From contig NZ_BLZO01000046.1 in assembly GCF_014132355.1 (NCBI RefSeq), forward strand, positions 1-64,000: a DNA stretch of 64,000 bases, read 5' to 3'. Source of the stretch: Okeania sp. KiyG1 (GTDB lineage: Bacteria; Cyanobacteriota; Cyanobacteriia; Cyanobacteriales; Microcoleaceae). Shown here in pieces: positions 3,999-62,660 of the stretch (the stretch's first letter is position 1; each line of letters starts with the position of its first letter). A program made the position numbers and the translations under genes. The notes under the pieces are model-generated. The model saw only the letters and a program-made list of their open reading frames with translations. It had not been told where the DNA came from and did no database searches.

Positions 3999-5075
3999 TA
4001 ATCTGATAATATATTTTGTAATATTTTGTAGGAAAAGTTAAAAAAAGCACTATCATTATTATTAGACATCTCCAGAAAAGAGGCAGTAGGTAGTAGAGGG
4101 AAATAATTGATAATTTCTGTGTGATAATTGATTTTATTTTTTATTATTTGGAGATGTCTATTACACATCTAGTGGCAATTACACATATAGATGATTTTTT
4201 GTGTTTTTTTCAGAAATTTTCTTGGCTGTTGCCTTCCGGAGTTGTTGTCTACTTCTGCAAAAATTCTATTCTTTTAATCTGACAATATATTTTGTAAGAA
4301 AAGTTTCAAAAAATAACTATAATTATTATTAGACATCTCCAGAAAAGAGGCAGTAGGTAGTAGAGGGAAATAATTGATAATTTCTGTGTGATAATTGATT
4401 TTATTTTTATTATTTGGAGATGTCTATTACACATCTAGTGGAAATTAAACATATAGATGATTTTTTGTGTTTTTTTCAGAAATTTTCTTGGCTGTTGCCT
4501 TCCGGAGTTGTTGCCTACTTCTGCAAAAATTCTATTCTTTTAATCTGACAATATATTTTGTAAGAAAAGTTTCAAAAAATAACTATAATTATTATTAGAC
4601 ATCTCCAGAAAAGAGGCAGTAGGTAGTAGAGGGAAATAATTGATAATTTCTGTGTGATAATTGATTTTATTTTTTATTATTTGGAGATGTCTATTACACA
4701 TCTAGTGGAAATTAAACATATAGATGATTTTTGTGTTTTTTTCAGAAATTTTCTTGGCTGTTGCCTTCCGGAGTTGTTGCCTACTTCTGCAAAAATTCTA
4801 TTCTTTTAATCTGACAATATATTTTGTAAGAAAAGTTTCAAAAAATAACTATAATTATTATTAGACATCTCCAGAAAAGAGGCAGTAGGTAGTAGAGGGA
4901 AATAATTGATAATTTCTGTGTGATAATTGATTTTATTTTTTATTATTTGGAGATGTCTATTACACATCTAGTGGAAATTAAACATATAGATGATTTTTGT
5001 GTTTTTTCAGAAATTTTCTTGGCTGTTGCCTTCCGGAGTTGTTGTCTACTTCTGCAAAAATTCTATTCTTTTCCG
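3999..5075. repeat. Four-copy tandem array, about 266-bp unit, each with a 96-bp miniature element
   Basis: The phase marker AGACATCTCC recurs at 4064, 4331, 4597 and 4863, giving periods of 267, 266 and 266. Copies are nearly identical. Each unit holds a 95-96 bp segment (4064-4159, 4331-4425, 4597-4692, 4863-4958) bounded by the inverted ends AGACATCTCC and GGAGATGTCT and flanked on both sides by ATT. The simplest reading is that a miniature element inserted once and the locus was then amplified in tandem. No convincing coding sequence is present; short frames here are not conserved between units. Confidence 0.9.
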
Positions 5076-7312: not shown

Positions 7313-7400
7313 TAGTTTTTAACTCTTTGAAACTGTCGATCGTGTAATACTCACATCTTGCATAAATTCAGTATAGCACTAGACAAAATATTCCTTTTCT

Positions 7401-8460
7401 ACTAATGCGTATGTCGCAATAATACAATGTAATATAAATGTAATTCGGAAATTGGTGGATAAACCTAGAGCGATCGCTTAATTTAGATTCCTTCTCTACT
7501 AATGCGTATGTCGCAATAATACAATGTAATATAAATGTAGTTCGGAAATTGGTAGAGAAACCTAGAGCGATCGCTTAATTCAGATTCTTTTTCTACTAAT
7601 GCGTATGTCGCAATAATACAATGTAATATAAATGTAGTTCATAAATTGGTAGAGAAACATAGAGCGATCGCTTAATTCAGATTCTTTTTCTACTAATGCG
7701 TATGTCGCAATAATACAATGTAATATAAATGTAGTTCGGAAATTGGTAGAGAAACCTAGAGCGATCGCTGAATTTAGATTCCTTTTCTACTAATGCGTAT
7801 GTCGCAATAATACAATGTAATATAAATGTAGTTCGGAAATTGGTAGAGAAACCTAGAGCGATCGCTTAATTTAGATTCCTTCTCTACTAATGCGTATGTC
7901 GCAATAATACAATGTAATATAAATGTAGTTCGGAAATTGGTTGAGATAATGGAGCGATCGCTTAATTTAAATTCCTTTTCTACTAATGCGTATGTCGCAA
8001 TAATACAATGTAATATAAATGTAGTTCAGAAATTGGTTGAGATAATGGAGCGATCGCTTAATTTAAATTCCTTCTCTACTAATGCGTATGTCGCAATAAT
8101 ACAATGTAATATAAATGTAGTTCAGAAATTGGTTGAGATAATGGAGCGATCGCTTAATTCAGATTCCTTTTCTACTAATGCGTATGTCGCAATAATACAA
8201 TGTAATATAAATGTAGTTCAGAAATTGGTTGAGATAATGGAGCGATCGCTTAATTTAGATTCCTTTTCTACTAATGCGTATGTCGCAATAATACAATGTA
8301 ATATAAATGTATTTCAAAAATTGGTAGAGAAACATAGAGCGATCGCTTAATTTAAATTCCTTCTCTACTAATGCGTATGTCGCAATAATACAATGTAATA
8401 TAAATGTAGTTCAGAAATTGGTGGATAAACCTAGAGCGATCGCTTGATTCAGATATAAAA
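7401..8460. repeat. Eleven-copy HIP1-bearing tandem array, 96/97-bp unit
   Basis: The segment ACTAATGCGTATGTCGCAAT starts at 7401, 7498, 7595, 7692, 7789, 7886, 7982, 8078, 8174, 8270 and 8367. The first five intervals and the last are 97 bp, and the four between 7886 and 8270 are 96 bp. Almost every unit contains one HIP1 octamer GCGATCGC. The 96-bp copies form an open frame with a 32-residue period (7937-8350), but the 97-bp copies break it, so I treat this as non-coding DNA. It fills the region upstream of the VWA gene. Confidence 0.92.
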
Positions 8461-14954: not shown

Positions 14955-15716
14955 ATGAAAGGGACTAACACCAATCCAATACCCATTCAAGCGGCCCAAT
15001 TTCTCAAACTGGCGGGTCTGATATTAATACTCTTCACTTTGCTTAACTACATTCTATTACTATTTCCTTTAAACCTGGGGGATGTGGAATGGCGATTAAG
15101 ATTCACAACCCAGATAGTCAATCAAGGGATTGTGCCAATTCTGGGAATCGCCCTAATGTTTTCTGCTTATGGCTTTGAAGACATCCTGGGCCTGTCGAAA
15201 GCACAACCAAAAATTGGCTGGAACAACTTGAAATTTTGGGTTTGTCTAATTTCCTTATTTTTTGGGATTATCTTTCTATTATTAATTCCTTTGCATATTA
15301 CCAGTGCTGTTGCGGGTAGTAATCAGGCCATCGAAAAGGTAAATCAAGATGCTGCCGACGCTCAGAAGCAGTTAGAAGAACGTCTTTCACAACAGCAAGC
15401 TCAAATCACAGGTTTGCTCGAGAGTAATCAAAGAATAGAAGATTTTGTGGGGGATGTAGAACTTACGGAAGAGCAGTTAGCAAATTTGGAGAGGTTTAAA
15501 AATAATCCAGGAGTTCTCAAAACTCAAACAGAAGCTATTAAGGAGAAACTGACAAAACAGATAGAAGCCAGAAAACAAAGAGCGGAGCAAAGATCGCAAT
15601 TGGGAGCCTTGAAATCTAGCATCAGAATTGGTCTTAGTAGCCTACTATTAGCAAGCTGTTACTTGACTATTGGTTGGAGCGGTATTAAAGGGAGTAAGCC
15701 TAGAAGAGTTCGCTAA
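14955..15716 (+). CDS. HpsJ-like membrane protein
   Basis: 253 residues. It has membrane segments at about residues 17-37, 55-72 and 92-115, a long charged coiled coil from about 120 to 215 (EKVNQDAADAQKQLEERLSQ onward) and a final membrane segment near 222-243. This plan fits the HpsJ family, first named in hormogonium polysaccharide secretion in filamentous cyanobacteria, where it is thought to help exopolysaccharide export and gliding; that role is by family inference. No other hps genes are in the window. The TAA stop touches the start of a family C element. Confidence 0.65.
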   Translation: MKGTNTNPIPIQAAQFLKLAGLILILFTLLNYILLLFPLNLGDVEWRLRFTTQIVNQGIVPILGIALMFSAYGFEDILGLSKAQPKIGWNNLKFWVCLISLFFGIIFLLLIPLHITSAVAGSNQAIEKVNQDAADAQKQLEERLSQQQAQITGLLESNQRIEDFVGDVELTEEQLANLERFKNNPGVLKTQTEAIKEKLTKQIEARKQRAEQRSQLGALKSSIRIGLSSLLLASCYLTIGWSGIKGSKPRRVR

Positions 15717-16170: not shown

Positions 16171-16412
16171 AGTAGGGGGCAGGTTCTGTCATTGATTTTC
16201 CGGTTAAACAGCCATAGAATGGTTAAGTTAGGAGGAGTCAGGAGTTGTAGGGGCGATTCGCGTAATTAGGAGCATTCCGGAACGGAAATCGCCCGTACAG
16301 GAGTCAGGAGGAGAAAGAATTACAAATATGAGCGTAGTTATGACGATTGAAGAATTTTTTTATGTCCAATTAAACGGATTTGATATCATTCCATAATATG
16401 CAATCCCTAATT

Positions 16413-16626
16413 AGGGCTTGCTGAATAAATCTCAAAGCATTTACAGGTAAAGGTTTTAGACTTTTTAGGTCTGAAATACCTTGGTTTTCAGCCCTTCATA
16501 CTCAAAAAGTTAGTATTTTGGGCGAGAGTTGGGCAAAAAAATACTCCCCTACTCCCCTTTTCCCCTCCCAGGAGGGGTTAGGGGTGGGTCCCCTACTCCT
16601 TAAAAAAGACTTTTTCAGCAAACCCT
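16413..16626. mobile_element. Family A miniature element
   Basis: AGGGCTTGCTGAATAAATCT (16413) to TTTTTCAGCAAACCCT (ending 16626). The GAGGGGTTAGGGGTGGGTC module near its right end is shared with several other repeats. Confidence 0.75.
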
Positions 16627-16629
16627 AAT

Positions 16630-16747
16630 TAACTAAACCTGCCCCAAATCCATGAATAAATATTGTGCAATTAATAATAATGATGGGGGTAGGTTTATGA
16701 CATTAATTGTCGGGTCTCGTAATTTAACGGATGAACCCACCCCTACG
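16630..16747 (-). repeat. GTAG hairpin unit 3' of RAYT gene
   Basis: On the minus strand GTAG at 16744-16741 is followed by GGGTGGGTT, which pairs with AAACCTACCCCC near 16685-16700. This places a REP-type hairpin with the GTAG guide tetranucleotide directly downstream of the transposase gene. A further AACTAAACCTGCCCCA near 16630 matches the array units on the other side. Confidence 0.65.
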
Positions 16748-16749
16748 AG

Positions 16750-17313
16750 TTAATTTTTATGATTATTAATCATATTCCCTATTCCTTTGATATTAAATTG
16801 TTTCGGAAATGAAAATATATTTTCAGTATAAATTTCATCATTACACCAATTAATTGGATTGTTAAAAATATACTCTCTAATATTATTTAATGATGTTTCA
16901 TTTCTGATAATATGTTCATAATATCCTCTTTGCCATACCGAAACACCTTTAATTGTTCGCAACTGATTAATTCTACGGGCTGAAAATGTTTTCAAACCTC
17001 TGATTATTTCAGGCAAACCATGCCTTTTGTGATGTTTATTATCATCTGTTATTTCAATAATCCCATGAATATGATTAGGCATGATCATAAAAGCATCAAG
17101 ATTAATATAAGGATAAATTTTTGTTAGATTAAACCAGTTAAAATTAACAACTTTGCCATAGCTGTTTAAAATCATTTTATGATTATCAATAACCCCTAAT
17201 AAACATTCTCTTTGCCAAATACAAATAGTCACAAAATAAAAACCATTTTGACTATAATCATATCCTTTTAAACGGATTGATTGACGATTATGAAGATTAG
17301 GATTATATTTCAT
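16750..17313 (-). CDS. REP-associated tyrosine transposase (RAYT, TnpA_REP)
   Basis: 187 residues from ATG 17313. An upstream ATG at 17373 in the same frame is less likely because it lies in the repeat. The Y1/HUH fold is visible: His81-x-His83 in MPNHIHGII, and Tyr131/Tyr132 in GYYEHIIRNE. The N-terminal motif RLKGYDYSQNGFYFVTIC and the C-terminal REYIFNNP segment are typical of RAYTs rather than IS200 TnpA. These enzymes cut single-stranded REP hairpins next to a GTAG tetranucleotide. The gene is intact and flanked on both sides by GTAG hairpins. The upstream array begins at its start codon. Confidence 0.9.
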   Translation of the reverse strand: MKYNPNLHNRQSIRLKGYDYSQNGFYFVTICIWQRECLLGVIDNHKMILNSYGKVVNFNWFNLTKIYPYINLDAFMIMPNHIHGIIEITDDNKHHKRHGLPEIIRGLKTFSARRINQLRTIKGVSVWQRGYYEHIIRNETSLNNIREYIFNNPINWCNDEIYTENIFSFPKQFNIKGIGNMINNHKN

Positions 17314-17880
17314 AGATTTGTACAAAAAAATTATATGACAAATTATACAAATTGTAGGGGCTGGTTCCGTCATTAATTTTGATGATGATAATGGAATTAA
17401 CTAAACCTGCCCCATACCGTTAATTATAGATTTATACAAAAAAATTATATGACAAATTATACAAGTTGTAGGGGCTGGTTCCGTCATTAATTTTGATGAT
17501 GATAATGGAATTAACTAAACCTGCCCCATATCGTTAATTATAGATTTATACAAAAAATTATATGACAAATTATACAAGTTGTAGGGGCTGGTTCCGTCAT
17601 TAATTTTGATGATGATAATGGAATTAACTAAACCTGCCCCATATCGTTAATTATAGATTTATACAAAAAAATTATATGACAAATTATACAAGTTGTAGGG
17701 GCTGGTTCCGTCATTAATTTTGATGATGATAATGGAATTAACTAAACCTGCCCCATATCGTTAATTATAGATTTATACAAAAAATTATATGACAAATTAT
17801 ACAAGTTGTAGGGGCTGGTTCCGTCATTAATTTTGATGATGATAATGGAATTAACTAAACCTGCCCCATACCGTTAATTA
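17313..17880. repeat. Five-copy tandem array, 114-bp unit with GTAG hairpin
   Basis: TAGATTT(A/G)TACAAAAAA starts at 17313, 17427, 17541, 17654 and 17768, giving periods of 113-114. Each unit contains GTAGGGGCTGGTTCCGTC and, about 35 bases on, AACTAAACCTGCCCCAT. GGGGCTGGTT pairs with AACCTGCCCC with one mismatch, directly after GTAG. The first unit overlaps the translation start of the RAYT gene. Confidence 0.92.
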
Positions 17881-17899
17881 TTGTACCTTATATTAAAAG

Positions 17900-19238
17900 C
17901 ATTAGATTATTGGGTTGGGGGCGGGTTTTCTGAATAATTTGTTACACCGTTAACTTGAGGCGGAACCCGCCCCTACTGAGGAACCCGCCCCTACTGCGGA
18001 ACTTGACCCTACTGTTGCCACATTTGGGGGTTGGGGGCGGGTTTTCTGAATAATTTGTTACACCGTTAACTTGAGGCGGAACCCGCCCCTACTGCGGAAC
18101 CCGCCCCTACTGTTGCCACATTTGGGGGTTGGGGGCGGGTTTATCTAAACAATTTGTTACACCGTTAACTTGAGGCGGAACCCGCCCCTACTGCGGAACC
18201 CGCCCCTACTGCGGAACCCGCCCCTACTGTTGCCACATTTGGGGGTTGGGGGCGGGTTTATCTAAACAATTTGTTACACCGTTAACTTGAGGCGGAACCC
18301 GCCCCTACTGCGGAACCCGCCCCTACTGTTGCCACATTTGGGGGTTGGGGGCGGGTTTATCTAAACAATTTGTTACACCGTTAACTTGAGGCGGAACCCG
18401 CCCCTACTGCGGAACCCGCCCCTACTGTTGCCACATTTGGGGGTTGGGGGCGGGTTTATCTAAACAATTTGTTACACCGTTAACTTGAGGCGGAACCCGC
18501 CCCTACTGCGGAACCCGCCCCTACTGCGGAACCCGCCCCTACTGTTGCCACATTTGGGGGTTGGGGGCGGGTTTATCTAAACAATTTGTTACACCGTTAA
18601 CTTGAGGCGGAACCCGCCCCTACTGCCGAACCCGCCCCTACTGTTGCCACATTTGGGGGTTGGGGGCGGGTTTATCTAAACAATTTGTTACACCGTTAAC
18701 TTGAGGCGGAACCCGCCCCTACTGCCGAACCCGCCCCTACTGTTGCCACATTTGGGGGTTGGGGGCGGGTTTATCTAAACAATTTGTTACACCGTTAACT
18801 TGAGGCGGAACCCGCCCCTACTGCGGAACCCGCCCCTACTGCGGAACCCGCCCCTACTGTTGCCACATTTGGGGTTGGGGGCGGGTTTATCTAAACAATT
18901 TGTTACACCGTTAACTTGAGGCGGAACCCGCCCCTACTGCCGAACCCGCCCCTACTGTTGCCACATTTGGGGGTTGGGGGCGGGTTTATCTAAACAATTT
19001 GTTACACCGTTAACTTGAGGCGGAACCCGCCCCTACTGCGGAACCCGCCCCTACTGCCGAACCCGCCCCTACTGCCGAACCCGCCCCTACTGCCGAACCC
19101 GCCCCTACTGCCGAACCCGCCCCTACTGTTGCCACATTTGGGGTTGGGGGCGGGTTTATCTAAACAATTTGTTACACCGTTAACTTGAGGCGGAACCCGC
19201 CCCTACTGCCGAACCCGCCCCTACTGCCGAACCCGCCC
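17900..19238. repeat. Twelve-copy higher-order array with expandable 18-mer
   Basis: GTTACACCGTTAACTTGAGG starts at 17941, 18057, 18156, 18273, 18372, 18471, 18588, 18687, 18786, 18902, 19001 and 19171. Intervals are mostly 99 or 116-117 bp, a difference of one 18-mer (CGGAACCCGCCCCTACTG), and one is 170 bp where five or more 18-mers stand in a row. On the minus strand each unit reads GTAG then GGGCGGGTT, and the unit also carries AACCCGCCC, so GTAG-tagged hairpins form. The array runs straight into the 3' end of the hybrid kinase gene. Confidence 0.93.
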
Positions 19239-22200
19239 CTACTGCTTTTGTTGTTCTATTTTCAAGGCATTAATAACTTTTTCATACTCCACTTTAACCT
19301 GAGAAAAAATCTCTATTGCTTCTGCTGGAGTAGAATTTCCTGACTCATCAACTAAACGAGCCATAATTTCTAATTCTTGACAAATTTTATAAAGAGCCAT
19401 TGCCCCCAGAGTACCACTAATAGATTTGAGAGAATGAGCAGCATTTTTAAGTATAAGTGGATCGGCTTGATTAATGGCAATATTGATATTCTCTAGAAGT
19501 TCGGGAGAAGTTTCTAAATAAATATCTATGACTTCATCTAGAGCTTCTACTTCTCTCAACCCTTCTATTACTTTACTCTCAAGAATAGTCTGTTCTGTAA
19601 AAATATGATTATCGTCTTGAGCGGTTGCTGGAGATAAATTTGATTGTGGGAAAGTCAATATTTCCTTTCCTTCTGACGCAACAGACTTAGCTTTACTCAA
19701 AGCTTCTATAAGTTGCTCCATTTTTATTGGTTTACTAATATAATCATCCATTCCCGCAGCTATACATTCTTCGCGATCGCCCTGCATAGCATTAGCTGTC
19801 ATAGCAATAATTCGAGGTCTTGGTTGAGAAACTGTTTCAGAATGTTTTGTGGCATTTTCATATTCTTGTCGAATGCGACGAGCAGCTTTTAAGCCATCCA
19901 TCAAAGGCATCTGTACATCCATCAAAACCACATCATAAGGCACGCTAAACACAGCCTCTAAAACTTCTAAACCATTACTAACTACATCAGCACGATATCC
20001 CATGCGTTGTAAAATTTGCAAAGCTACTTTTTGATTAACTAAATGGTCATCTGCTAATAATATTCGCAGCGGTAATTGCTTTGCTAATAAAGGAATAGTT
20101 TGAGAATTCCATTTACTATTATTGTTTGTGATTCTAATTTCAATACCTTTACCAGAAAAAATATTTAGTAATACTTCATAAAGCTGAGATTGTTTAACAG
20201 GTTTATTAATAATAGCTGCAAATAATTGATGAGAAAGATTTATTTCTTGCCTACCGAAAGAAGTCAAAATTACTAAAGGTAAATCCTGATAATTTGGATT
20301 TTGACGAATTGTCTTTGCCAAAGTCAAACCATCAATTTTTGGCATCTGCATATCTATAATTGCTAGATCGAATTTGTGATTTTTAGCTATTAAATCTAAA
20401 GCATGAGTAGCATTTTCAGCAGTGCTAACTATCATGCCCCAGGATTCAGTTTGTTTCAACAAAATTTTTCTATTTGTACTATTATCATCAACTATTAGTA
20501 TTCTTTTATCTATTAATTTATCTTGATTGTTATCTAAATAATTAGTTTTAATTAATTTATCTTTGACAGTTTGAACGCTACATTCTGCGACTATTGTAAA
20601 ATTAAAACTTGAACCCGATCTTTCGTTGACATACTCTAATTTTTCATCTAAAAGTTTATAGCCTGCTGGGGGATTACCTGCAACTCCACCCATACTTTCA
20701 ACCCACATCTGACCACCCATCATTTCAGCTAATTTTTTACTAATAACTAATCCTAAACCTGTACCCCCATATTCCCGACTTGTAGAAGAATCAACTTGAC
20801 TAAAAGACTTAAATAAACGATTCATACGAGTGGCAGGAATACCAATACCTGTATCTCTGACTGAAAATTGTATTTCATATACGGGAAAAATATCACAACT
20901 ATTAAATTCTGAGTAATTTTTTGCTCTTAAATTATCTTTTTCTTTTGGGTTTAATACTCCGCCGTCTACAGGGTGTTGAAAATTGGTTGAAGTTTGAGTC
21001 CCCATCCACTTATTCCTTATTACTCCTTCTTCCTCCTTATTCCTTCTTTCCTCGTTCTTTTCTCTTTCTTCCTCCTTTCCTCTTCCTTCTTCCTCCTTCC
21101 CTCTTCCTTCTTCCTTCTTCCTTCTTCCTTCTTCAAGTATTTCTACCCTTCTGCTACTAACAGAAACTAATACCTCACCATGAGAGGTAAATTTCACAGC
21201 ATTACTCAAGAGATTAACTAAAATTTGACGTACCCTAGTAATATCTCCGATAATAGTAGTTGGAGTTTCTGGAGCGATGAAATAGACAAGTTCTAAATTC
21301 TTTTCACTAGCTTTTGCTGCTAACAAGTTAATAGATTCTTCTAGACAATTTTGTAAATCAAAAGGATTAGCTTCTAAATCTAGTTTTTCAGATTCTATTT
21401 TTGAGAAATCAAGTATATCATTAATGAGTGTAAGTAAGGCATCACCACTACTACGAATAGTCTCAACAAAATCTTTTTGATCTGTTTTGAGAGGAGTATC
21501 TAATAGTAAACCAGTCATGCCAATAACTGCATTCATTGGAGTTCTAATTTCATGACTCATAGTAGCTAAAAATTCACTTTTTGCTCTAGTAGCAGCGAGT
21601 GCTTCATCTCTAGCTTTTGCTAAATCATTAGCAGTTTTTTGACGTTCTAATTCTCCACCTATCCACTGAGCCATTAGTTTTAATAACTCTTTATCTACGG
21701 CTTTAAAAGGTTCATTCAGAGCTTGAGGACTCCAGAAATTTAGAGTACCATAAACTGAGCCTCCTACTACAACTGAGGTTCCCATATAAGCGTCGATTTG
21801 AAAAGCCATATTTACTGTGATACAAAAACCTGAATATTGAATAGATTCAAAACATATTGGCTCTTCTGCTATTGCTGCAAAAATAAATGTTTTTTCTAAG
21901 TCAAATTCTTCTCCTTTCAAAATAGAATTATCGGGAGTTTTAGCTGCAATAATAGTATATTTATTATCTTCAATTCTAGATAAGACTCCTATTTCCAGGC
22001 CGAACTTTTTACAGCCCATTTCTAATAATTTTTGGAGGCGGTTGTTAAAACAGGAAATTGTAGAGTTATCTTGATTTGTACCTTGACAAGGAGTAGAAGT
22101 TATTTCATACAATCTCCGAATAGCTGCTTCACTTTCTTGTAATTCTTGTTCTCTTTGTTTACGGTCAGAAATATCACGAGAAACTGCAATAATTTCTTGT

Positions 22201-23180
22201 ACTTTCCCCGTCTCAGGATCGCGAATTGTACGAGCGGTGGTTTCAAACCAAACATATTTACCTTCTTGACAAAGGAGGCGGTAGGCAATAGTGTAAGTTA
22301 CCGGATTGTTAATAATAGTGTGATAAGCTTTGGCAATTGCTTTAATATCTTCAGGTGCAAAAAACTCTTTTGGATGAGTACCAACAATTTCTAATGGAGA
22401 ATATCCCATCAGGTTGCGACAAGCGGGGGATACATAAAGGAAAACCCCATCCGGAGAGTGACGAGAAATCATATCAGTGGAGTTTTCTGCCATTAGTCTA
22501 TAGCGTTCTTCGCTATCTTGAGATTCAAATTGAGAATTTTGTAAGCCTTCTAGCATTTTATTCATAGTCTGAGCAAGGCTTGACAACTCGTCATCCCCTG
22601 GCATTGGTACGCGCATTGAAAGGTCTCCACTAGAAGCTATTTGATTGACTATTTTGTTGAATTGTGAAATACGAGAGACTAACAATTTTGCTCTGACTGC
22701 AAGCATAACGATCCCAAAAACTAGACCTACTATTATCAATGAAAGAATAAAGTAAGTCCAAAACCATAGACTGTGGTAGCGCATAATCAGGAAAGGCAAA
22801 GGGCAGAATACAGAAGCGAGTGCGTAATTATGAGGTCTCCTCAGAATGTAAGACGCACTCAAGACAGGCAGAAGAGAATTCTGGCTCCTGCCCTCTGTCC
22901 CCTGCCTTGTACCTTCGTTCATAGCATTAGATTCTAGTTTATTCTCATCAACTAACTTTTTTGATAAGGCAAATATCCTCTCCTGTTTTGCCCTTACAGA
23001 TAAATCAGGTATCTCATCATCTAATCTATTTAATGTCCTTGCTACATCTAGACAAACGTAATCTCCTGCCAAATTTTGGAAACCATAAAACAACATAATT
23101 GATGCTGTAATACACAAGACCACTATCAAACTAGCGATCGCCGTACTAATAACTATTAATGTTTTTTGACGAAGTTTCAT
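19239..23180 (-). CDS. Hybrid histidine kinase (TM-HAMP-PAS-GAF-HisKA-HATPase-REC-REC-HPt)
   Basis: Membrane sensor kinase with a built-in phosphorelay. Starting from ATG 23216 it would be 1325 residues; I prefer ATG 23180 (MKLRQKTL, just before the first membrane segment). In the longer numbering: membrane segments about 20-45 and 152-175, HAMP about 175-230, PAS about 238-355, GAF about 365-525, HisKA with MSHEIRTP (His near 555), HATPase with NLLSNAVKFT, DTGIGIP and GGTGLGLVISKK, two receivers with phospho-Asp in IIDMQMPKIDG (near 952) and LMDVQMPLMDG (near 1097), and a C-terminal HPt with AAHSLKSISG. Odd points: the periplasmic part (about 95-150) is made of repeat-like DNA, the ATPase domain contains an ~83-residue repeat insert (20895-21143), and the stop TAG belongs to the adjacent array. 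The ligand is unknown. Confidence 0.9.
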   Translation of the reverse strand: MKLRQKTLIVISTAIASLIVVLCITASIMLFYGFQNLAGDYVCLDVARTLNRLDDEIPDLSVRAKQERIFALSKKLVDENKLESNAMNEGTRQGTEGRSQNSLLPVLSASYILRRPHNYALASVFCPLPFLIMRYHSLWFWTYFILSLIIVGLVFGIVMLAVRAKLLVSRISQFNKIVNQIASSGDLSMRVPMPGDDELSSLAQTMNKMLEGLQNSQFESQDSEERYRLMAENSTDMISRHSPDGVFLYVSPACRNLMGYSPLEIVGTHPKEFFAPEDIKAIAKAYHTIINNPVTYTIAYRLLCQEGKYVWFETTARTIRDPETGKVQEIIAVSRDISDRKQREQELQESEAAIRRLYEITSTPCQGTNQDNSTISCFNNRLQKLLEMGCKKFGLEIGVLSRIEDNKYTIIAAKTPDNSILKGEEFDLEKTFIFAAIAEEPICFESIQYSGFCITVNMAFQIDAYMGTSVVVGGSVYGTLNFWSPQALNEPFKAVDKELLKLMAQWIGGELERQKTANDLAKARDEALAATRAKSEFLATMSHEIRTPMNAVIGMTGLLLDTPLKTDQKDFVETIRSSGDALLTLINDILDFSKIESEKLDLEANPFDLQNCLEESINLLAAKASEKNLELVYFIAPETPTTIIGDITRVRQILVNLLSNAVKFTSHGEVLVSVSSRRVEILEEGRRKKEEGRGKEEEGRGKEEEREKNEERRNKEEEGVIRNKWMGTQTSTNFQHPVDGGVLNPKEKDNLRAKNYSEFNSCDIFPVYEIQFSVRDTGIGIPATRMNRLFKSFSQVDSSTSREYGGTGLGLVISKKLAEMMGGQMWVESMGGVAGNPPAGYKLLDEKLEYVNERSGSSFNFTIVAECSVQTVKDKLIKTNYLDNNQDKLIDKRILIVDDNSTNRKILLKQTESWGMIVSTAENATHALDLIAKNHKFDLAIIDMQMPKIDGLTLAKTIRQNPNYQDLPLVILTSFGRQEINLSHQLFAAIINKPVKQSQLYEVLLNIFSGKGIEIRITNNNSKWNSQTIPLLAKQLPLRILLADDHLVNQKVALQILQRMGYRADVVSNGLEVLEAVFSVPYDVVLMDVQMPLMDGLKAARRIRQEYENATKHSETVSQPRPRIIAMTANAMQGDREECIAAGMDDYISKPIKMEQLIEALSKAKSVASEGKEILTFPQSNLSPATAQDDNHIFTEQTILESKVIEGLREVEALDEVIDIYLETSPELLENINIAINQADPLILKNAAHSLKSISGTLGAMALYKICQELEIMARLVDESGNSTPAEAIEIFSQVKVEYEKVINALKIEQQKQ
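20895..21143 (-). repeat. In-frame repeat insert inside the kinase ATPase domain
   Basis: A run of GAAGAAGG-type units encodes a Glu/Lys/Arg-rich stretch (EEGRRKKEEGRGKEEEGRGK and on), followed by WMGTQTSTN, QHPVDGGVLNPKEKDN and LRAK. It separates SVSSRRVEIL from YEIQFSVRDTGIGIP, which are normally only about 10-15 residues apart. A near-identical run and tail occur in frame at 29367-29560 in a different gene, so the insert is a mobile or spreading sequence rather than ancestral protein. Confidence 0.85.
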
Positions 23181-23216
23181 CGGGTCTTTCACTATTGCTC
23201 CTATGCAGCAAACCAC

Positions 23217-38262: not shown

Positions 38263-40743
38263 ATGAAAGTCGAAGAAGCATTGGAAGTTCTGGAGACAGT
38301 TCTACCTCCAGGCTCCTTAAACGCTGTAAAAAGAAAGGTATTTTCTCAAGCATGGGAAGGTAAAGCTTATGCTGAAATTGCCGAGCAAGCAGGTTATGAC
38401 CCAGACTACATAAAAGGAGTAGCTGCAAACTTATGGCAAAGTCTTTCTGGTGTCTTAGACGAAAAAGTAACCAAGAAAAACTTTCGCGCTCTGCTGAGAC
38501 AAAAATTTGGCATTCAGAAATCATGTCTTGCCAAAACAGAACTAAACATTCAACAACATATATTCCAATCTTCTACAGAAACAAAAAAAACACTGTCTAA
38601 ACCAAAAATTGATTGGGGAGAAGCTATAGATGTTTCTGTTTTTTACGGACGTTCTCAAGAACTAAATCGACTACAACAATATATTATCGGAGATGGCTGT
38701 CGTTTAGTAGCATTACTAGGTATGGGAGGCATTGGTAAAACAGCAGTAGCAGCAAAAGTCGCCAAACAACTACAGAATAAATTTGACTATATAATCTGGC
38801 GATCGCTCCGTCATGCTCCCTCCCTAGAAACAATTCTCACTCAACTCGTATCATTTTTATCCCAGCAAGAATGTACTCAAGGAGAACTAAGCAAACTAAT
38901 TGAATACTTGCGTAACTCACGTTGCCTAATAATTTTAGATAGTGTCGAAAGCATTTTACAAACTGGATGTACAGGTCACTATCGTCCTGGCTACGAAAAC
39001 TACAGTCAACTCTTTCATTTAATCGGCGAAACATCCCACTCTAGCAGTCTCATCCTCACCAGTCGAGAAAAACCTCCGGAAGTAGCAGCCTTTGAAAGTA
39101 TAGATGCAGCAGTACGCTCCCTACAACTACTCGGTTCTAAAGAAGTAGCCCATGCTTTACTAAAAACCAACAAAATATTAGGCTCAGAAACACAAAAACA
39201 ACAGCTCAGTGAATATTATAGTTATAGTCCCCTAGCCTTAAAAATTGTCACCAGTTCCATAACAGACTTATTTGATGGAGACCTATCAGAATTTCTGCAA
39301 CATGGCACAACCACCTTCAATGGTATTCGTCGCCTCCTCGACCAACACTTTCAGCGTCTATCAGAGCTAGAAAAAAAAATCATAGTTTGGTTGGCAATTA
39401 ACCAAGACTGGACTAATGTACAAAGATTGCAAACTGATATTGTGCCAGCAATTTCCAAAGCAAATCTCTTAGAAAGTTTAGAAGCTCTGATCTGGCGCTC
39501 TCTAGTCAAGAAAAAATCAAGTATGTATACAGTTGAAGCTGTAGTAATGGAGTATATTCTCCACTACTTAATTGAACAGGTCGTTTCTGAGTTAACTACT
39601 GCAAATTTAGACTTATTTATCAGTCATTCTTTAATCATCACCACTGGCAAACGCTATGTTAAAGAACGACAAAATAAGCTAATTATAGAACCTATTGCCA
39701 GACAACTCAGCACAATATTTAGTTCGACTCGAGCGCTAGAACAACAATTGTTATTAATTTTAAACAAGCTACAAGCAAGTGAAACTTCCTTGTGTGGTTA
39801 TGGCATTGAAAATCTGATTAACCTGTGCATGAAACTACAAATTGACTTAATGGTAAGTGACATTTCTCCCGGTCAAATAGAATCTCATAAATCTGCTAAT
39901 ACCTATTCCCAAAAAGCTATTGAAGTATTAGCTACAGTTAACTCGAAATCTTCTGAGTATTGTGCAATAGTTCCTGGGAAACTTTGCCCTGCTATTAGTC
40001 AAGCAGATAAACAAAAGTGCCATGAAAGTTATGACTCACAGTTGCTAGAGCATAGTTCTTGTGTTTGTCCTACTAATTCTGTAGATTTATCTGACCAAAC
40101 TTGCTTAGAACCACCAAAACAAGAAGATGAAAATCTTTTAGACTGCCCAATGTTGTTGGAAAAAATGCAAATACCGACATTGGGTAATATTTCTGTCATC
40201 GCTTCTAGTCCAAATAGAGATTTTTTAGCGATCGCTGATAAATTGGGAGAAATTCGTCTGTTATCAACGGTGAAAGGTAAATCAAATTTGCTGCTTGACG
40301 GCCATACTCAAGAAGTACATTCTCTTGTTTGGAGTCCAGATGGAAATTTTCTCGCAACTGGTAGTAGCGATCGAAAAGTAAGATTATGGGATATTAATAC
40401 AGGTAAATGTCTCCACATTTTTGCAGGACATACAGCACAAATTGATTCCTTAGTTTGGAGTCAAAATAGTCAAACTATTGCTAGTAGAAGTGAAGATAAA
40501 ACTATTAAACTCTGGGATATTTCTACTGGCGAATGTTTGCATACTTGGTTAGCTGAAAATTTTATTCAATCCTCTACTTACTTGGATTTACTATCAACTG
40601 ATATGTTTGAATTTTTAGCTCCTACTTTTATTGAAGTTGAATGTTCTGTTAGTCTAAGGATGAATGGCTTAAGTTTTGTTGGGTTTGTAGATTCTCAAGA
40701 TGATTGTACGCCCATAGTATCTTTATTTGCATATAAAGCTTAG
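38263..40743 (+). CDS. NB-ARC (STAND) NTPase with N-terminal HTH-like domain and short WD40 tail
   Basis: 826 residues. The N-terminal ~85 residues (MKVEEALEVLETVLPPGSL, WEGKAYAEIAEQAGYDPDYI) look like a helix-turn-helix region typical of cyanobacterial NB-ARC proteins. The NTPase follows with Walker A LLGMGGIGKTAVAAK (near 152-166), Walker B CLIILDSVE (near 224) and ILTSREKP. A helical region leads to two clear WD40 repeats (GHTQEVHSLVWSPDG to LWDINTG, and GHTAQIDSLVWSQ to LWDISTG) at about 680-770, plus weaker neighbours. STAND proteins sense a ligand through the repeats and oligomerise; many act in signalling or phage defence. The WD40 part is far too short for a full propeller, so it may be truncated or pair with another protein. 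Confidence 0.88.
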   Translation: MKVEEALEVLETVLPPGSLNAVKRKVFSQAWEGKAYAEIAEQAGYDPDYIKGVAANLWQSLSGVLDEKVTKKNFRALLRQKFGIQKSCLAKTELNIQQHIFQSSTETKKTLSKPKIDWGEAIDVSVFYGRSQELNRLQQYIIGDGCRLVALLGMGGIGKTAVAAKVAKQLQNKFDYIIWRSLRHAPSLETILTQLVSFLSQQECTQGELSKLIEYLRNSRCLIILDSVESILQTGCTGHYRPGYENYSQLFHLIGETSHSSSLILTSREKPPEVAAFESIDAAVRSLQLLGSKEVAHALLKTNKILGSETQKQQLSEYYSYSPLALKIVTSSITDLFDGDLSEFLQHGTTTFNGIRRLLDQHFQRLSELEKKIIVWLAINQDWTNVQRLQTDIVPAISKANLLESLEALIWRSLVKKKSSMYTVEAVVMEYILHYLIEQVVSELTTANLDLFISHSLIITTGKRYVKERQNKLIIEPIARQLSTIFSSTRALEQQLLLILNKLQASETSLCGYGIENLINLCMKLQIDLMVSDISPGQIESHKSANTYSQKAIEVLATVNSKSSEYCAIVPGKLCPAISQADKQKCHESYDSQLLEHSSCVCPTNSVDLSDQTCLEPPKQEDENLLDCPMLLEKMQIPTLGNISVIASSPNRDFLAIADKLGEIRLLSTVKGKSNLLLDGHTQEVHSLVWSPDGNFLATGSSDRKVRLWDINTGKCLHIFAGHTAQIDSLVWSQNSQTIASRSEDKTIKLWDISTGECLHTWLAENFIQSSTYLDLLSTDMFEFLAPTFIEVECSVSLRMNGLSFVGFVDSQDDCTPIVSLFAYKA

Positions 40744-41061
40744 TTCAACAATTAATAATTAATAATTAATAATTACCTATCCTTGAAAATAAGAGGATTG
40801 ACTCAAAGGAAAAATTTTTTTTTCTCCTTTAGTAGTTAAGTTGGCGTAGTCTCGCTCTATATGCAAAGATACTAAATGGCTTCTATACAGAGAGGATTGA
40901 CTTAATCAAGGAATAAAGGTATAATCCCTCATCAAACATACCTTTATATTGTAATCCATCAGAGCAAAGTTAAAATTCAATAGTAAACAGAAAACTCTGA
41001 TGGTTCAACACTCTGGTATCGTAGTACATCTCTAAACAATTAGAAATTTTTTAAATCAGCA
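40744..41061. repeat. Family H repeat, then plain AT-rich sequence
   Basis: AATTAATAATTAATAATT, ACCTATCCTTGAAAATAAGA and TTTCTCCTTTAG (40746-40840) are family H parts starting two bases after the NB-ARC stop codon. Nothing further is seen up to 41061. Confidence 0.6.
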
Positions 41062-41704
41062 ATGATGAAATTATTTACTATTGGTCATTCTAATCATTCC
41101 ATAGAATCTTTTTTAAGTCTCTTACAAAAACATCAGATAACAGCCTTAGCAGATGTTCGATCCTACCCTTATAGTAATTATTTACCTCATTTTCATCAAA
41201 AAAACATTAAGCAATATCTACAGAAAATCAATATTTCATACATTTTTTAGGCAAAGAATTAGGTGCAAGAACTAATAATTTAAGTTGTTACGTTAATGGA
41301 AAAGCTTTATACGAGCTAATTGCTAACACAGAAGAATTTCAAAAGGTTTAGAAAAAGTTTATCAAAGTTTGGAAAATTATAATATTGCTTTGATGTGTTC
41401 TGAACAAGATCCAATTACTTGTCATCGTGCTATTTTAGTGAGCCGACATTTAACATATAAAGGTTTAGACATTTACCATATTCTTAAAAATGGTGAATTA
41501 GAAAATCACTCTGCTCTTGAACAAAGACTGCTACAAATTAATCATCTTATTGAAAAAACCCAGCCATTTTTACAATTAAGTCTTTTTGATACTGAAAGCT
41601 TCAGCAAAAATGTTACCCAATCCACTAAAAATTCTGAAGATACAATACTTGAAAAAGCTTACAAAATTCAAGGGGATAAAATTGCATATGTAAACAAAAA
41701 ATAG
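41062..41704 (+). pseudogene. DUF488 family gene, two single-base frameshifts
   Basis: Reads as one DUF488 protein when two indels are corrected. 41062-41250 has FTIGHSNHSIESFLSLL and ADVRSYPYSNYLPHF. A T run at about 41242-41247 lacks one T, after which FLGKELGARTNN and CYVNGKALYELIAN follow. A short A run near 41341-41344 lacks one A. From 41369 the frame continues with MCSEQDPITCHRAILVSRHL. The family signatures (TIGHS, ADVR, C(S)E x DP x CHR) are all present. Its biochemical activity is not established. It heads a cluster with a second DUF488 and a dual-OB-like gene. Confidence 0.8.
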
Positions 41705-41906
41705 TATCTAATATTGTTTGTTAGATCTGGATAAGTCATTTCAGTTATCAGTTATCAGTTATCAGTACCTCTGTAATAAGGAGGTTTGACATCAGCAATG
41801 CTCTTTTCTCTTTGTCAATTAGATATGGTGCAGGTTTATGAGCCATCTCTCGACCGCTTTTTATCCCCTTAAAAGGGTAGGCTTTAGACAACAATTTTTC
41901 GGTAAA

Positions 41907-42348
41907 ATGAAAAAAACTATTGAAATTTTTACAATTGGATTTACAAAAAACCGCTCAAGAATTTTTGATAATTTAACAGAATCAAAAGTAAAATGCGTTA
42001 TTGATACAAGAGTCAATAATGCTTCTCAACTTGCTGGATTTGCGAAAAAAAAGATTTAGAATATTTTCTTAAAGTGATTTGCAATATTGAATATATTCAT
42101 ATTCTAGATTTAGCACCTACTAAAGAACTTTTAGATGATTATAAAAAAAGAGAATTACTTGGGATACTTATGAACAAAAATTTAATCACCTTATGAGTGA
42201 AAGAGAAATCGAAAAAAAAGTTTCACCCCAACTTTTAGACCGAGGTTGTTTGCTTTGTAGTGAAGCTAAACCACATTATTGTCATCGCCGTTTAGTAGCT
42301 GAATATCTCAATAAACAATGGGGAAATATTAAAGTATGTCATCTCTGA
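41907..42348 (+). pseudogene. Second DUF488-like gene, two frameshifts, overlapping next gene
   Basis: Start ATG 41907 gives MKKTIEIFTIGFTKNRSRIF and IDTRVNNASQLAGFAKK. A run of eight A (42045-42052) then shifts frame; DLEYFLKVICNIEYIHI continues. A second lost base near 42154-42158 (GAGAATTAC) precedes TWDTYEQKFNHLM. The end CLLCSEAKPHYCHRRLVAEYL resembles the Cys-containing C-terminal motif of the first DUF488 gene. The stop TGA (42346-42348) overlaps the start of the dual-OB gene by 13 bases, which indicates translational coupling in the intact ancestor. The segment upstream of ATG is family H sequence. Confidence 0.78.
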
Positions 42349-43010
42349 AAAAAATAATTTGTTTAGCTAATTCCTACAAACTAAATGAGCGTTGTATTGC
42401 AGGCATTGATTTAGATACGGGAAAATGGGTTCGTCCAGTATGCGATCGCCAATATCCTGAAGATGGAAGAGTACCTAAAAGAATTAGATTTGTTGAAGGT
42501 AGAGAACCAAAACCTCTTGATATTCTTGAAATTCCTCTTGATAATAAAGGAAATGATTTTGGTTTTGAAAGTGAAAACCTTTCAGTATTAAAAGGTGAAT
42601 GGAAATGTTTAGGTCAAGCTAAAGTTGAAGAGATACTTCAATACTGTAATAATTCCGACTATATCCTACATAATTCTCGTAAATATGTTAATCCTTCCTA
42701 TCTAAAAACAGTTCCCTTTCATCGACGTCGAACAATTGAAATTGTTAAAGTTAAAAAGCAAAATTTCTCTGTTACTCAAAATAAAGAAGGTAAATTTCGA
42801 GGTAGTATCAAAAATAATAATGGTTATTTGCTCTTAAATAATGCAAAAATTACCGATCCAGAATTTATAAAAGACTTAGAAAACGGATATTCTCTAACTT
42901 CAAATAATCTTTTGGTGACTATAAGTCTTAGTATGCCTTATGCTACTTCTCAAAATTGGGAAGGAGAACCTCCTTGTTGGAAGTTAATAGCAAATATACT
43001 TGAGTTTTGA
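42336..43010 (+). CDS. Dual-OB-like (DuOB) domain protein
   Basis: 224 residues, intact. MSSLKKIICLANSYKLNERC, AGIDLDTGKWVRPVCDR, DILEIPLD, LHNSRKYVNPSY and PYATSQNWEGEPPCWKLIANI are hallmarks of a small family often annotated as a dual OB-fold protein and found next to DUF488 genes. Both are discussed as possible parts of prokaryotic conflict systems. That is family knowledge recalled, not shown by this sequence. The start is fixed by the 13-base overlap with the preceding gene. It stayed intact while both upstream partners carry frameshifts. Confidence 0.7.
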   Translation: MSSLKKIICLANSYKLNERCIAGIDLDTGKWVRPVCDRQYPEDGRVPKRIRFVEGREPKPLDILEIPLDNKGNDFGFESENLSVLKGEWKCLGQAKVEEILQYCNNSDYILHNSRKYVNPSYLKTVPFHRRRTIEIVKVKKQNFSVTQNKEGKFRGSIKNNNGYLLLNNAKITDPEFIKDLENGYSLTSNNLLVTISLSMPYATSQNWEGEPPCWKLIANILEF

Positions 43011-43401
43011 TTTGCCTAAAAGCTAATAATACTAGGTGCTTTCTGTTCCGGACTGCTCTGCAAACCCTGTCGGTCGCTTCGGACGAAAATATGTTGCAGG
43101 TGCTTCAAAAATTAATAATTAATAATTAATAATTAATAATTACCTCTCCTTGAAAACGGATAGTATTGACTCAAAGAAAAATTTTTTCTTGTTTCTCCTT
43201 TAAAGGAGAGGCTTCAAACCTTAATTATTCGGTAAATCCTATGTATATTATTCTTATGTCTATTCCGTTACTAGCCGTTAACCGTTACTAACCCTCACTC
43301 TCCTACTCCTTCACTCAAGAAAACATAGAAAAGTTTTTGAGAAGAGAATAAGACTATAGAGGAGAAGAACCCGATCGCTATCATTCAAATTAACTTTTTG
43401 A
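43011..43401. repeat. Intergenic with family H repeat
   Basis: A complete-looking family H copy at about 43108-43235: AATTAATAATTAATAATT, CTCTCCTTGAAAACGGATAG, GTTTCTCCTTTAAAGGAGAGG, CCTTAATTATTCGGTAAA. The rest is unremarkable. Confidence 0.65.
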
Positions 43402-61076: not shown

Positions 61077-61105
61077 TTATCGGGAGCAATATTAATGCTA
61101 TCCCC

Positions 61106-61417
61106 ATTTTATGAAGCACTCGGTAGTTAGTTTGAAGTAGACCCCAATTTCTGCTTAGGGTTGCGAATGTGGCAATAGTCATTTCATTTTATGAAGCACT
61201 CAGAAAGTTAGTCTGACCTCAAACTAATTTCTGCTTAGGGTTGCGAATATCGCAATAGTCATTTCATTTTATGAAGCACTCAGGAAGTTAGTCTGACCTC
61301 AAACTAATTTCTGCTTAGGGTTGCGAATATCGCAATAGTCGTTTCATTTTATGAAGCACTCAGGAAGTTAGTCTGACCTCAAACTAATTTCTGCTTAGGG
61401 TTGCGAATATCGCAATC
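61106..61417. repeat. Four-copy 80-bp tandem array
   Basis: ATTTTATGAAGCACTC recurs at 61106, 61186, 61266 and 61346. Units include CTGACCTCAAACTAATTTCT and GCTTAGGGTTGCGAATATCG; the last three are nearly identical. Confidence 0.9.
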
Positions 61418-61935: not shown

Positions 61936-62268
61936 ATGATTGCCAGTGCCTTTACTGCTTCTATAACACCTAATACACTGGTTCAAAAAGAGACACCAGA
62001 AAATCTAGCTGCTCAAGCATTATATTACGCTGAAAATGCTTCGACCTTCAACAACCATCCTGAATATCAAAAAGATTTTCACTACCATCTTCACAATTTT
62101 TGTGATATTCTAAGAGTAAGATGGGATTGTTCGTCTACACACATGATTTTTTATTCAACTAAGTTTGTTTATATATTCACAAAGTTGTCTCAGGAGCAAT
62201 ACCAGAAATTATTTCATCTTGTGAAGCTTTTAAAAGTAAAGAGCTTTACCTCCATTTATACTCACTAG
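61936..62268 (+). CDS. Hypothetical short ORF, partly made of repeat sequence
   Basis: 110 codons. The first ~50 residues (IASAFTASITPNTLVQKETP, ALYYAENASTFNNHPEYQ) are unique and of ordinary composition, but from about residue 47 the frame runs through the 247-bp array below (HNFCDILRVRWDCSSTHMIF). No ribosome binding site is evident. It may be the end of a decayed gene or chance. Confidence 0.25.
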   Translation: MIASAFTASITPNTLVQKETPENLAAQALYYAENASTFNNHPEYQKDFHYHLHNFCDILRVRWDCSSTHMIFYSTKFVYIFTKLSQEQYQKLFHLVKLLKVKSFTSIYTH

Positions 62269-62660
62269 AAAACCATCAAATTTTTCATTCTCTGAAGCAC
62301 CAAAAAAACGGCGGGTCAAAAGATTTTCACTACCATCTTCACAATTTTTGTGATATTCTAAGAGTAAGATGGGGTTGTTCGTCTATACACATGATTTTTT
62401 ATTCAACTAAGTTTGTTTATATATTCACAAAGTTGTCTGAGGAACAATACCAAAAATCTTTTCATCTTGTGAAGCTTTTAAAAGTAAAGAGCTTTACCTC
62501 CATTTATACCCACTAGAAAACCATCAAATTTTTCATTCTCTGAAGCACCAAAAAACGGCGGGTCAAAAGATTTTCACTACCATCTTCACAATTTTTGTGA
62601 TATTTTAAGAGTAAGATGGGGTTGCTTACCTATACGCATGATTTTTTATTCAACTAAAAT
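62071..62660. repeat. Three-copy array, about 247-bp unit, related to family E
   Basis: AAAGATTTTCACTACCATCT begins at about 62071, 62319 and 62566. Units contain GATATTCTAAGAGTAAGATG, CATGATTTTTTATTCAACTA and GAAGCACCAAAAAAACGGCG. The last two modules match family E at 37638-37765 and 38040-38170. Confidence 0.85.

Follow-up and report, generated by a model that had tools for sequence, protein, structure and literature searches.

The 64,000-nucleotide stretch of Okeania sp. KiyG1 analysed here (the window) contains an intact gene for a RAYT, the transposase associated with repetitive extragenic palindromic (REP) sequences, and, on the 5′ side of this gene, two long tandem arrays of hairpins tagged with GTAG. 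Judged from its motifs, profile scores and predicted fold, the gene at 16750-17313 on the minus strand is a genuine REPtron RAYT of TnpA_REP subclass 2.4 (RAYT group 4). Arrays of this kind do not need an adjoining RAYT, and tandem growth is not confined to the RAYT neighbourhood. On balance we lean towards an ordinary REPtron, whose hairpins would first have been spread in trans, with slippage or recombination expanding them afterwards. The part most worth following is a genome-specific duplication of single hairpin arms. The genome of the window (G000) is a draft of 10.98 Mb in 198 contigs, and G040-G044 are its five sister genomes.

RAYT identity and pairing with a hairpin type

The gene and the hairpin on its 3′ side are located as follows.
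16685..16746, minus strand: RAYT 3′ GTAG hairpin, GTAG-GGGTGGGTT (basis: sequence; fold z -1.98)
16750-17313, minus strand: RAYT/TnpA_REP gene, HuH-Y transposase; intact open reading frame (ORF) of 187 aa with the subclass 2.4 motifs

A sequence-only reading of the window had described a 187-residue RAYT transposase with a GTAG hairpin on its 3′ side; the hairpin was found again at 16685-16746, and the transposase was borne out by motifs, Pfam, PDB profile and fold. The protein scored 35.5 bits against Pfam Y1_Tnp (cut-off 23), and among the NCBIfam profiles REP_Tyr_transpos gave 73.9 bits, which is below its cut-off of 80, and IS200 gave 25.1. It carries NHIH at residue 80, WQ at 127 and YIFNNP at 148, and thus all three motifs listed for subclass 2.4 (NH[IFV]H, WQ and YIxNNP) in the sections of Quentin et al. 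2018 consulted here (PMC6006769), which equate the subclass with RAYT group 4 of Bertels, give it a median length of 194 aa and describe it as common in Cyanobacteria, with long REPs that have three G-C pairs at the stem base. The HxH motif of the sequence-only reading therefore stands as NHIH, but its Tyr-Tyr pair (131-132) is, by sequence, not the class signature, which is Y---NP with Tyr148 at the published position. The best match of an alignment-profile search of the PDB was 4er8 (E. coli TnpA_REP, E 4.6e-7), and a single-sequence PDB search gave no match at E 0.001. The AlphaFold2 model of the protein had a pLDDT of 80.8, with residues 162-187 unsure, and Foldseek returned 30 matches to it at E ≤0.001, all of them Y1 transposases (IS200/IS605-type and TnpA_REP). 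Among these, 4er8 ranked third (E 1.1e-7); ISDra2 2xm3 was slightly ahead by E-value, and 4er8 was better in rmsd and TMq. By NCBIfam scores and PDB profile the protein was nearer TnpA_REP than IS200, with the fold comparison as just given. A record of Okeania sp. SIO2B3 encodes a RAYT 92% identical to that of the window.

The HuH-Y fold is common to the window RAYT and the IS200/IS605 transposases. Unlike in those elements, no tnpB-sized ORF is present between the neighbour genes of the RAYT, and the protein has Y---NP, not Y---Q. Several near-identical gene copies, as in IS200/IS605, were not found in G000, which holds one copy of the lineage; the next matches in G000 were at most 51% identical, as in a REPtron, which generally has one full-length gene per REP type. 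The flanking REPs have the GTAG foot and GGG stem base, and they are long, single-foot hairpins of about 60 nt with a 9-10 bp stem. No double foot of the REPIN kind was seen in these hairpins, which finish in GCCCCAT or GCCCCCAA without CTAC. Unlike the predominant mark of subclass 2.4, a REP insertion in the gene, which in the cited sections is not obligatory (PMC6006769), no GTAG hairpin is present within the window RAYT.

RAYT lineage and stem type go together, and this pairing is well supported at the lineage level by sequence comparison. A GTAG-GGGCGGGTT-type hairpin was found within 600 bp of the match at all 27 loci with at least 54% identity, at 4 of the 26 loci with 40-53% and at 1 of the 27 below 40%; two flanks were covered per locus, and in the control, which consisted of single 630-bp stretches more distant from 14 loci of the top band, 2 of 70 carried this stem type. 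The relationship was also seen in a RAYT tree made from 59 labelled loci (30 family loci, 28 of 80 relatives and the C94 locus of G000), of which 57 were used after L106 (short) and L152 (nine stops) had been left out. With nine stem spellings pooled into one label, the label needs 3 changes on this tree compared with 17.7 after shuffling, and none of 500 shuffles was as low. One group of 37 rows, with moderate branch support (92/90), contains 35 stem-labelled and 2 unlabelled rows and spans Cyanobacteria, Chloroflexota, Acidobacteriota, Planctomycetota and a Burkholderiaceae bin. In 263 distinct hairpins, stem pair 4 was C-G in 249, T-A in 6 and others in 8, and pair 5 was G-C in 234, A-T in 2, T-A in 1 and others in 26 (A-C 8, G-T 7); these counts give mild support at most, because the loci were gathered by that stem.

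The other RAYT-like genes of G000 have other hairpins, namely GTAGGGGCGAATGGCATTCGCCC at C94, GTAGGTTGGGTTAAGCG at C79 and GTAGGGTGTGTTAGCG at C83. Upstream of the gene at C187 (L038:4554-5100) is a 90-bp array of the hairpin GCGAGCAAGATGCTCGC without a GTAG foot, and at C58 and C179 no GTAG hairpin was seen by reading within 350 bp on each side. The C94 RAYT (L033:6446-7088; 51% identity over 90 aa) has the motifs NHLH, WQ and YIIENP. Between its HuH and Tyr motifs the frame runs without a stop through a GTAG hairpin sequence (GTAGGGGCGAAC...), and the gene adjoins an array of six 181-bp units of its own hairpin.

The hairpins themselves are widely dispersed. In G000, GTAGGGGCDGGTT occurs in 186 copies compared with 1 for the reversed control, which is far beyond chance. 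The array 2 hairpin family (72-nt consensus) has at least 85 matches in G000 and 15-23 in each of the five sisters; the G000 BLAST counts are lower bounds, as scoring covered 40 of the 98, 76 and 113 candidates. The 13-mer GTAGGGGCGGGTT is present in 56 of 62 family genomes, and its median was 105.5 copies in the 20 genomes with the RAYT lineage compared with 22 in the 42 without it (one-sided Mann-Whitney p 1.4e-4, uncorrected for kinship). The 20 genomes were our own choice, with a threshold of 59% identity across nearly the full length; they include G042, whose RAYT is truncated, and G010 and G013, whose genes carry a stop, and the fragments in G040 and G043 were uncounted. The sequence-only reading had offered equal abundance in relatives lacking the RAYT as grounds for giving it up; the outcome was mixed, in that the hairpins proved commoner with the lineage, yet genomes without a close RAYT reach 227 copies (G037, followed by G032 with 203 and G048 with 186), and G045, in which no RAYT match whatever was found, has 54. 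At unlinked places (C94:184165, C105, C187, C98), near-identical copies have GTAG as their left edge, and the sequences to the left of it are unrelated. At C94:184165 the left flank is without the hairpin in roughly 300 following bases in all five sisters; the right side differs, so the site is not clean and was rejected as an exact empty site. Many dispersed GTAG hairpins are nested in an outer palindromic repeat (CCAGTAG...CACCTAAAATGGTGCA / TGCACCATTTTA...; L060, L061, L214-L230). As reported in the consulted part of the literature, TnpA_REP cuts single-stranded REPs at CT (also CA in Marinomonas) beside the hairpin, and GTAG is required to differing degrees (PMC8266576).

Tandem arrays at the locus and elsewhere

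The arrays and the genes that flank the locus are located as follows.
17312..17881, plus strand: array 1, five units of 114/114/113/114/113 bp with 0-4 differences between units
17912..19245, minus strand: array 2, made up of twelve hairpin units, each of which has 2-6 arm 18-mers in tandem (union of Tandem Repeats Finder, TRF, rows)
17906..17976, minus strand: array 2, first unit; corresponds to the single ancestral hairpin, 94% to the 72-nt family consensus
19239..23216, minus strand: hybrid sensor histidine kinase gene (Pfam domains; final codons AAG CAG TAG)
14955..15716, plus strand: HpsJ-family gene, left neighbour and synteny marker (NCBIfam HpsJ_fam 217.6 bits, cut-off 60)
16172..16645, plus strand: left hairpin of array 1 type, halves at 16172 and 16628-16645, apparently split by inserted sequence

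The five and twelve units counted 5′ of the RAYT in the sequence-only reading were found again in the draft assembly, from which all array copy numbers are taken; the units of array 1 measure 113/114 bp, and array 2 extends 7 bases beyond the end given there, across the kinase stop codon. Each unit of array 1 consists of the RAYT 5′ leader and one GTAG-GGGCTGGTT hairpin, and no match to it elsewhere in G000 was present at E 0.001 among the best 40 of 76 candidates scored. The two arrays are opposed in orientation, with GTAG on the plus strand in array 1 and on the minus strand in array 2. The cores of array 2 are spaced at 116, 99, 117, 99, 99, 117, 99, 99, 116, 99 and 170 bp and are accompanied by 3, 2, 3, 2, 2, 3, 2, 2, 3, 2, 6 and 3 arm 18-mers, 31 of them exact in total; those of the first core are one exact and two degenerate. 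The last GTAG foot of array 2 supplies the kinase stop TAG (19239-19241), and in G042 and G040 the kinase frame ends, by reading, one codon earlier. Single-strand folds of the hairpins gave z values of -3.16, -3.35, -1.98 and -1.72. By reading, both arms of the RAYT 3′ hairpin carry changes in G040 and G043 and are still fully paired, and the G042 copies have a mismatch. Neither a structured-RNA match in Rfam at gathering scores nor a defence-system match in PADLOC was found, and both identities were rejected for this reason. The left hairpin was probably split by an insertion, as suggested by its unsplit counterpart at the same place in G042 and G043; an insert at 16408-16630 that resembles a miniature inverted-repeat transposable element, with the inverted ends TTAGGGCTTGCTGAA / TTCAGCAAACCCTAA, apparently splits it.

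Sister genomes gave array 2 a relative age. The kinase gene of G040, G041, G042 and G043 is 93-94% identical in DNA and ends on one hairpin with no array. Because these four sisters keep one hairpin and no array, array 2 grew, by sequence comparison, out of a lone hairpin at the stop codon of the kinase gene, and in the lineage of the window only. The recent amplification proposed in the sequence-only reading is supported by the hairpin that is still single in four of five sisters compared with twelve units in G000, with the caveat that the contig of G044 starts 120 bases away and shows no array within those bases. As for the RAYT, G042 and G043 are without its start and 5′ hairpin, G040 retains a C-terminal remnant, and G041 has none there. 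The HpsJ-like gene is, by reading, the left neighbour in G041 too, and between it and the kinase gene (C276) there is one array-1-type hairpin and no RAYT. Nothing was drawn from G041 as an excision footprint, since recombination between two direct hairpins and a never-filled site both fit.

Arrays of the same hairpins are also present far from the window. We re-examined twelve further G000 stretches, picked since earlier searches showed repeated matches there, with TRF (period at least 50, at least 2.8 copies, array 2-type stem arm in the unit). Ten of them hold 12 tandem arrays with the window stem arm (C57, two; C56; C85; C94:72083; C125, two; C105; C94:54042; C130; C115; C30), and no array meeting these thresholds was found in the C39 and C171 stretches. 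The largest, at C85, has 29.0 copies of 103 bp (40312-43298; 3 kb), compared with 12 units in array 2. Some units are incomplete: those of C56 have no partner arm, and the feet in C85 are mostly degenerate. No RAYT signature was found in the array stretches, six of which are only 0.9-1.5 kb long, and on their contigs no Pfam Y1_Tnp match was found except on C94, about 70-88 kb off. The one-contig genomes G009 and G010 likewise have arrays of 25.9, 15.0 and 13.9 units far from their RAYT. The claim of the sequence-only reading that enzyme and repeats form one cis-acting system is unsupported, and a cis-only origin was rejected as stated, because arrays remote from any RAYT are as large. Among 30 family RAYT loci, including that of the window, long GTAG arrays are present at 6 and short 15-mer arrays at a further 2; G009 mirrors the layout of the window, its RAYT lying between arrays and the two upstream ones being opposed in orientation. 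Matches about 104 bp apart were seen at G043:C33:239926-240515 and G044:C260:10141-11143, perhaps the same array as at C85, and in both genomes the window locus is without an intact RAYT. At 4021-5072, 7390-8454, 61105-61416 and 62070-62657 the window also has tandem arrays whose units measure 80-266 bp and contain no GTAG hairpin.

Arm duplications and the origin of tandem growth

The 18-mer of array 2 is one stem arm with its foot, and the array has steps of single arms. A pattern of two arms 1-10 nt apart gave 46 matches at 12 places in G000 and 0 in the reversed control; among the 61 other genomes of the family, which hold 4,652 13-mers, 3 had matches, 5 in total, the pattern being blind to arms of a different stem, for example in the 15-mer arrays that G044 and G058 carry. 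The 12 places collapse to about nine origins, with a degenerate tenth at C121; independence was judged by reading the flanks, and C41, C58, C92 and C150:21212, which share flanks, are one origin. The duplications apparently start 0-3 nt before GTAG and end just beyond the stem top. In six of nine origins the junction echoes 1-3 nt of the flanking sequence at that place (none at C39 and C131; C130 uninformative), a pattern suggestive of duplication in place. A RAYT cleavage dinucleotide (CT/CA) at the junctions was considered and rejected, as the ends (CA, CGG, CT, TATA and others) follow no rule. We tentatively suggest that this strain may duplicate single REP stem arms, from the GTAG foot to past the stem top, at many unlinked REPs by a foot-anchored copying step that is either RAYT-nicked or hairpin-driven. 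If this were true, such copying would be a missing link from single REPs to long REP arrays.

The preferred reading starts from four established points, which are the protein family, the pairing of lineage and stem, the near-identical dispersed hairpins with GTAG at their start and the growth of array 2 in this lineage only. The RAYT would act in trans by cutting single-stranded REPs beside the GTAG foot and would so disperse them, on the model of the E. coli, S. maltophilia and Marinomonas enzymes. Tandem growth would be a second, later process of replication slippage at hairpins and unequal recombination between units, acting at many REPs of a repeat-prone genome with no adjoining RAYT needed; the arm steps would come from a nascent strand that, having copied one arm, is displaced as the template hairpin recloses and then starts again at the foot, so copying the arm a second time. 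G000 seems prone to tandem growth in general, and five of the seven long-period arrays in the window are without a GTAG hairpin. Several results weigh against this reading. The 13-mer count test ignores phylogeny, and within genus g9 alone (10 vs 19 genomes) it is weak (p 0.05). The RAYT is intact here and broken or absent in the four sisters with a readable site, and of the six genomes only G000 has arrays at the locus, its 13-mer count being 171 compared with 9-23 in the others; that the only intact RAYT accompanies the only arrays is one case, and suggestive. Arm duplication is nearly confined to G000, which plain slippage would not predict unless the strain were unusually slippage-prone. 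GTAG-hairpin arrays are present at 3 of 7 RAYT-like loci of G000, the window itself being one of the three, compared with 0 of 16 window control segments (Fisher p 0.02); counting the own-hairpin array of C187, long arrays are present at 4 of 7 loci compared with 3 of 16 controls (p 0.14).

The arrays beside the intact RAYT and at three of the seven loci would also be expected if the RAYT itself drove the amplification, with a nick at the GTAG foot and then strand transfer or priming from the freed 3′ end adding arms or units, chiefly near the gene. The arm duplications of about nine origins, with apparent starts 0-3 nt ahead of GTAG, and the tandem hairpin arrays on both RAYT sides in G009 and G010, point the same way. 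We consider RAYT-driven growth rather unlikely, since arrays of equal or greater size sit away from any RAYT, 16 of 20 lineage loci are without a long GTAG array, and arm duplications show no tie to the lineage (2 of 20 genomes with it compared with 2 of 42 without; Fisher p 0.59). That the copy numbers are partly a product of assembly is improbable: the genome is a draft in 198 contigs with long near-identical repeats, several units being identical across 99 or 114 bp, but the units contain ordered variants (CGG/CCG arms, 113/114 bp), an ordinary read is long enough to cover a two-copy arm step, and the one-contig genomes G009 and G010 have similar arrays. Least probable of all is that selection keeps the arrays as regulatory DNA, as kinase terminators, mRNA 3′ stabilisers or stacked copies of the RAYT leader. 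Unit number is not conserved, like arrays occur at other loci, and Rfam gave no match at gathering scores, even though array 2 adjoins the kinase stop codon, its hairpins would be transcribed along with the kinase, and a single hairpin is retained at the kinase end in four sisters. This genome helps to separate dispersal, which is tied to the RAYT lineage, from tandem growth, which extends beyond the neighbourhood of the RAYT.

Comparison with known systems

No mention of arm-only arrays was found in the portions of open-licence literature consulted, with no search aimed at these alone, and a search by stem letters listed matches that look like human, animal and parasite work. The arm duplications at a dozen places in G000 have readable breakpoints and bear on how REP clusters form, for which the consulted sections of the 2011 REPIN paper invoke a second mechanism (PMC3116915).

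The REPtron with its two REP arrays belongs to an already known kind of system. The sequence-only reading had called tandem growth beside a RAYT unusual, a view that does not hold, because tandem REPIN clusters have been published beside each of three RAYTs in P. fluorescens SBW25, with further tandem REP arrays elsewhere in that genome (Bertels and Rainey 2011, sections consulted; PMC3116915). As in SBW25, the repeats here are tandem, include flanking sequence, are cognate to the RAYT they adjoin and are accompanied by more arrays elsewhere. The SBW25 unit, as described there, is an inverted REP pair, and its largest ordered REPIN cluster is slightly above 700 bp (PMC3116915), whereas here single-foot long hairpins form the 1.3 kb array 2 and the 3 kb array at C85, with arm-only steps. 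The window RAYT resembles subclass 2.4, as presented in the cited sections of Quentin et al. 2018 (PMC6006769), in its motifs, long REPs and three G-C stem-base pairs; tandem arrays do not feature in those sections. Cyanobacterial GTAG REPs of the families GTAG-12, -15 and -16, with REPtrons, were described by Di Nocera et al. 2013, where, in the sections consulted, GTAG REP clusters are reiterated in tandem with flanking DNA and REPs are present inside other palindromes (PMC3733652). By these descriptions, rather than by sequence, the window system is like those families in its GTAG-tagged palindromes, its REPtron, its tandem clusters and its REPs lying inside other palindromes.

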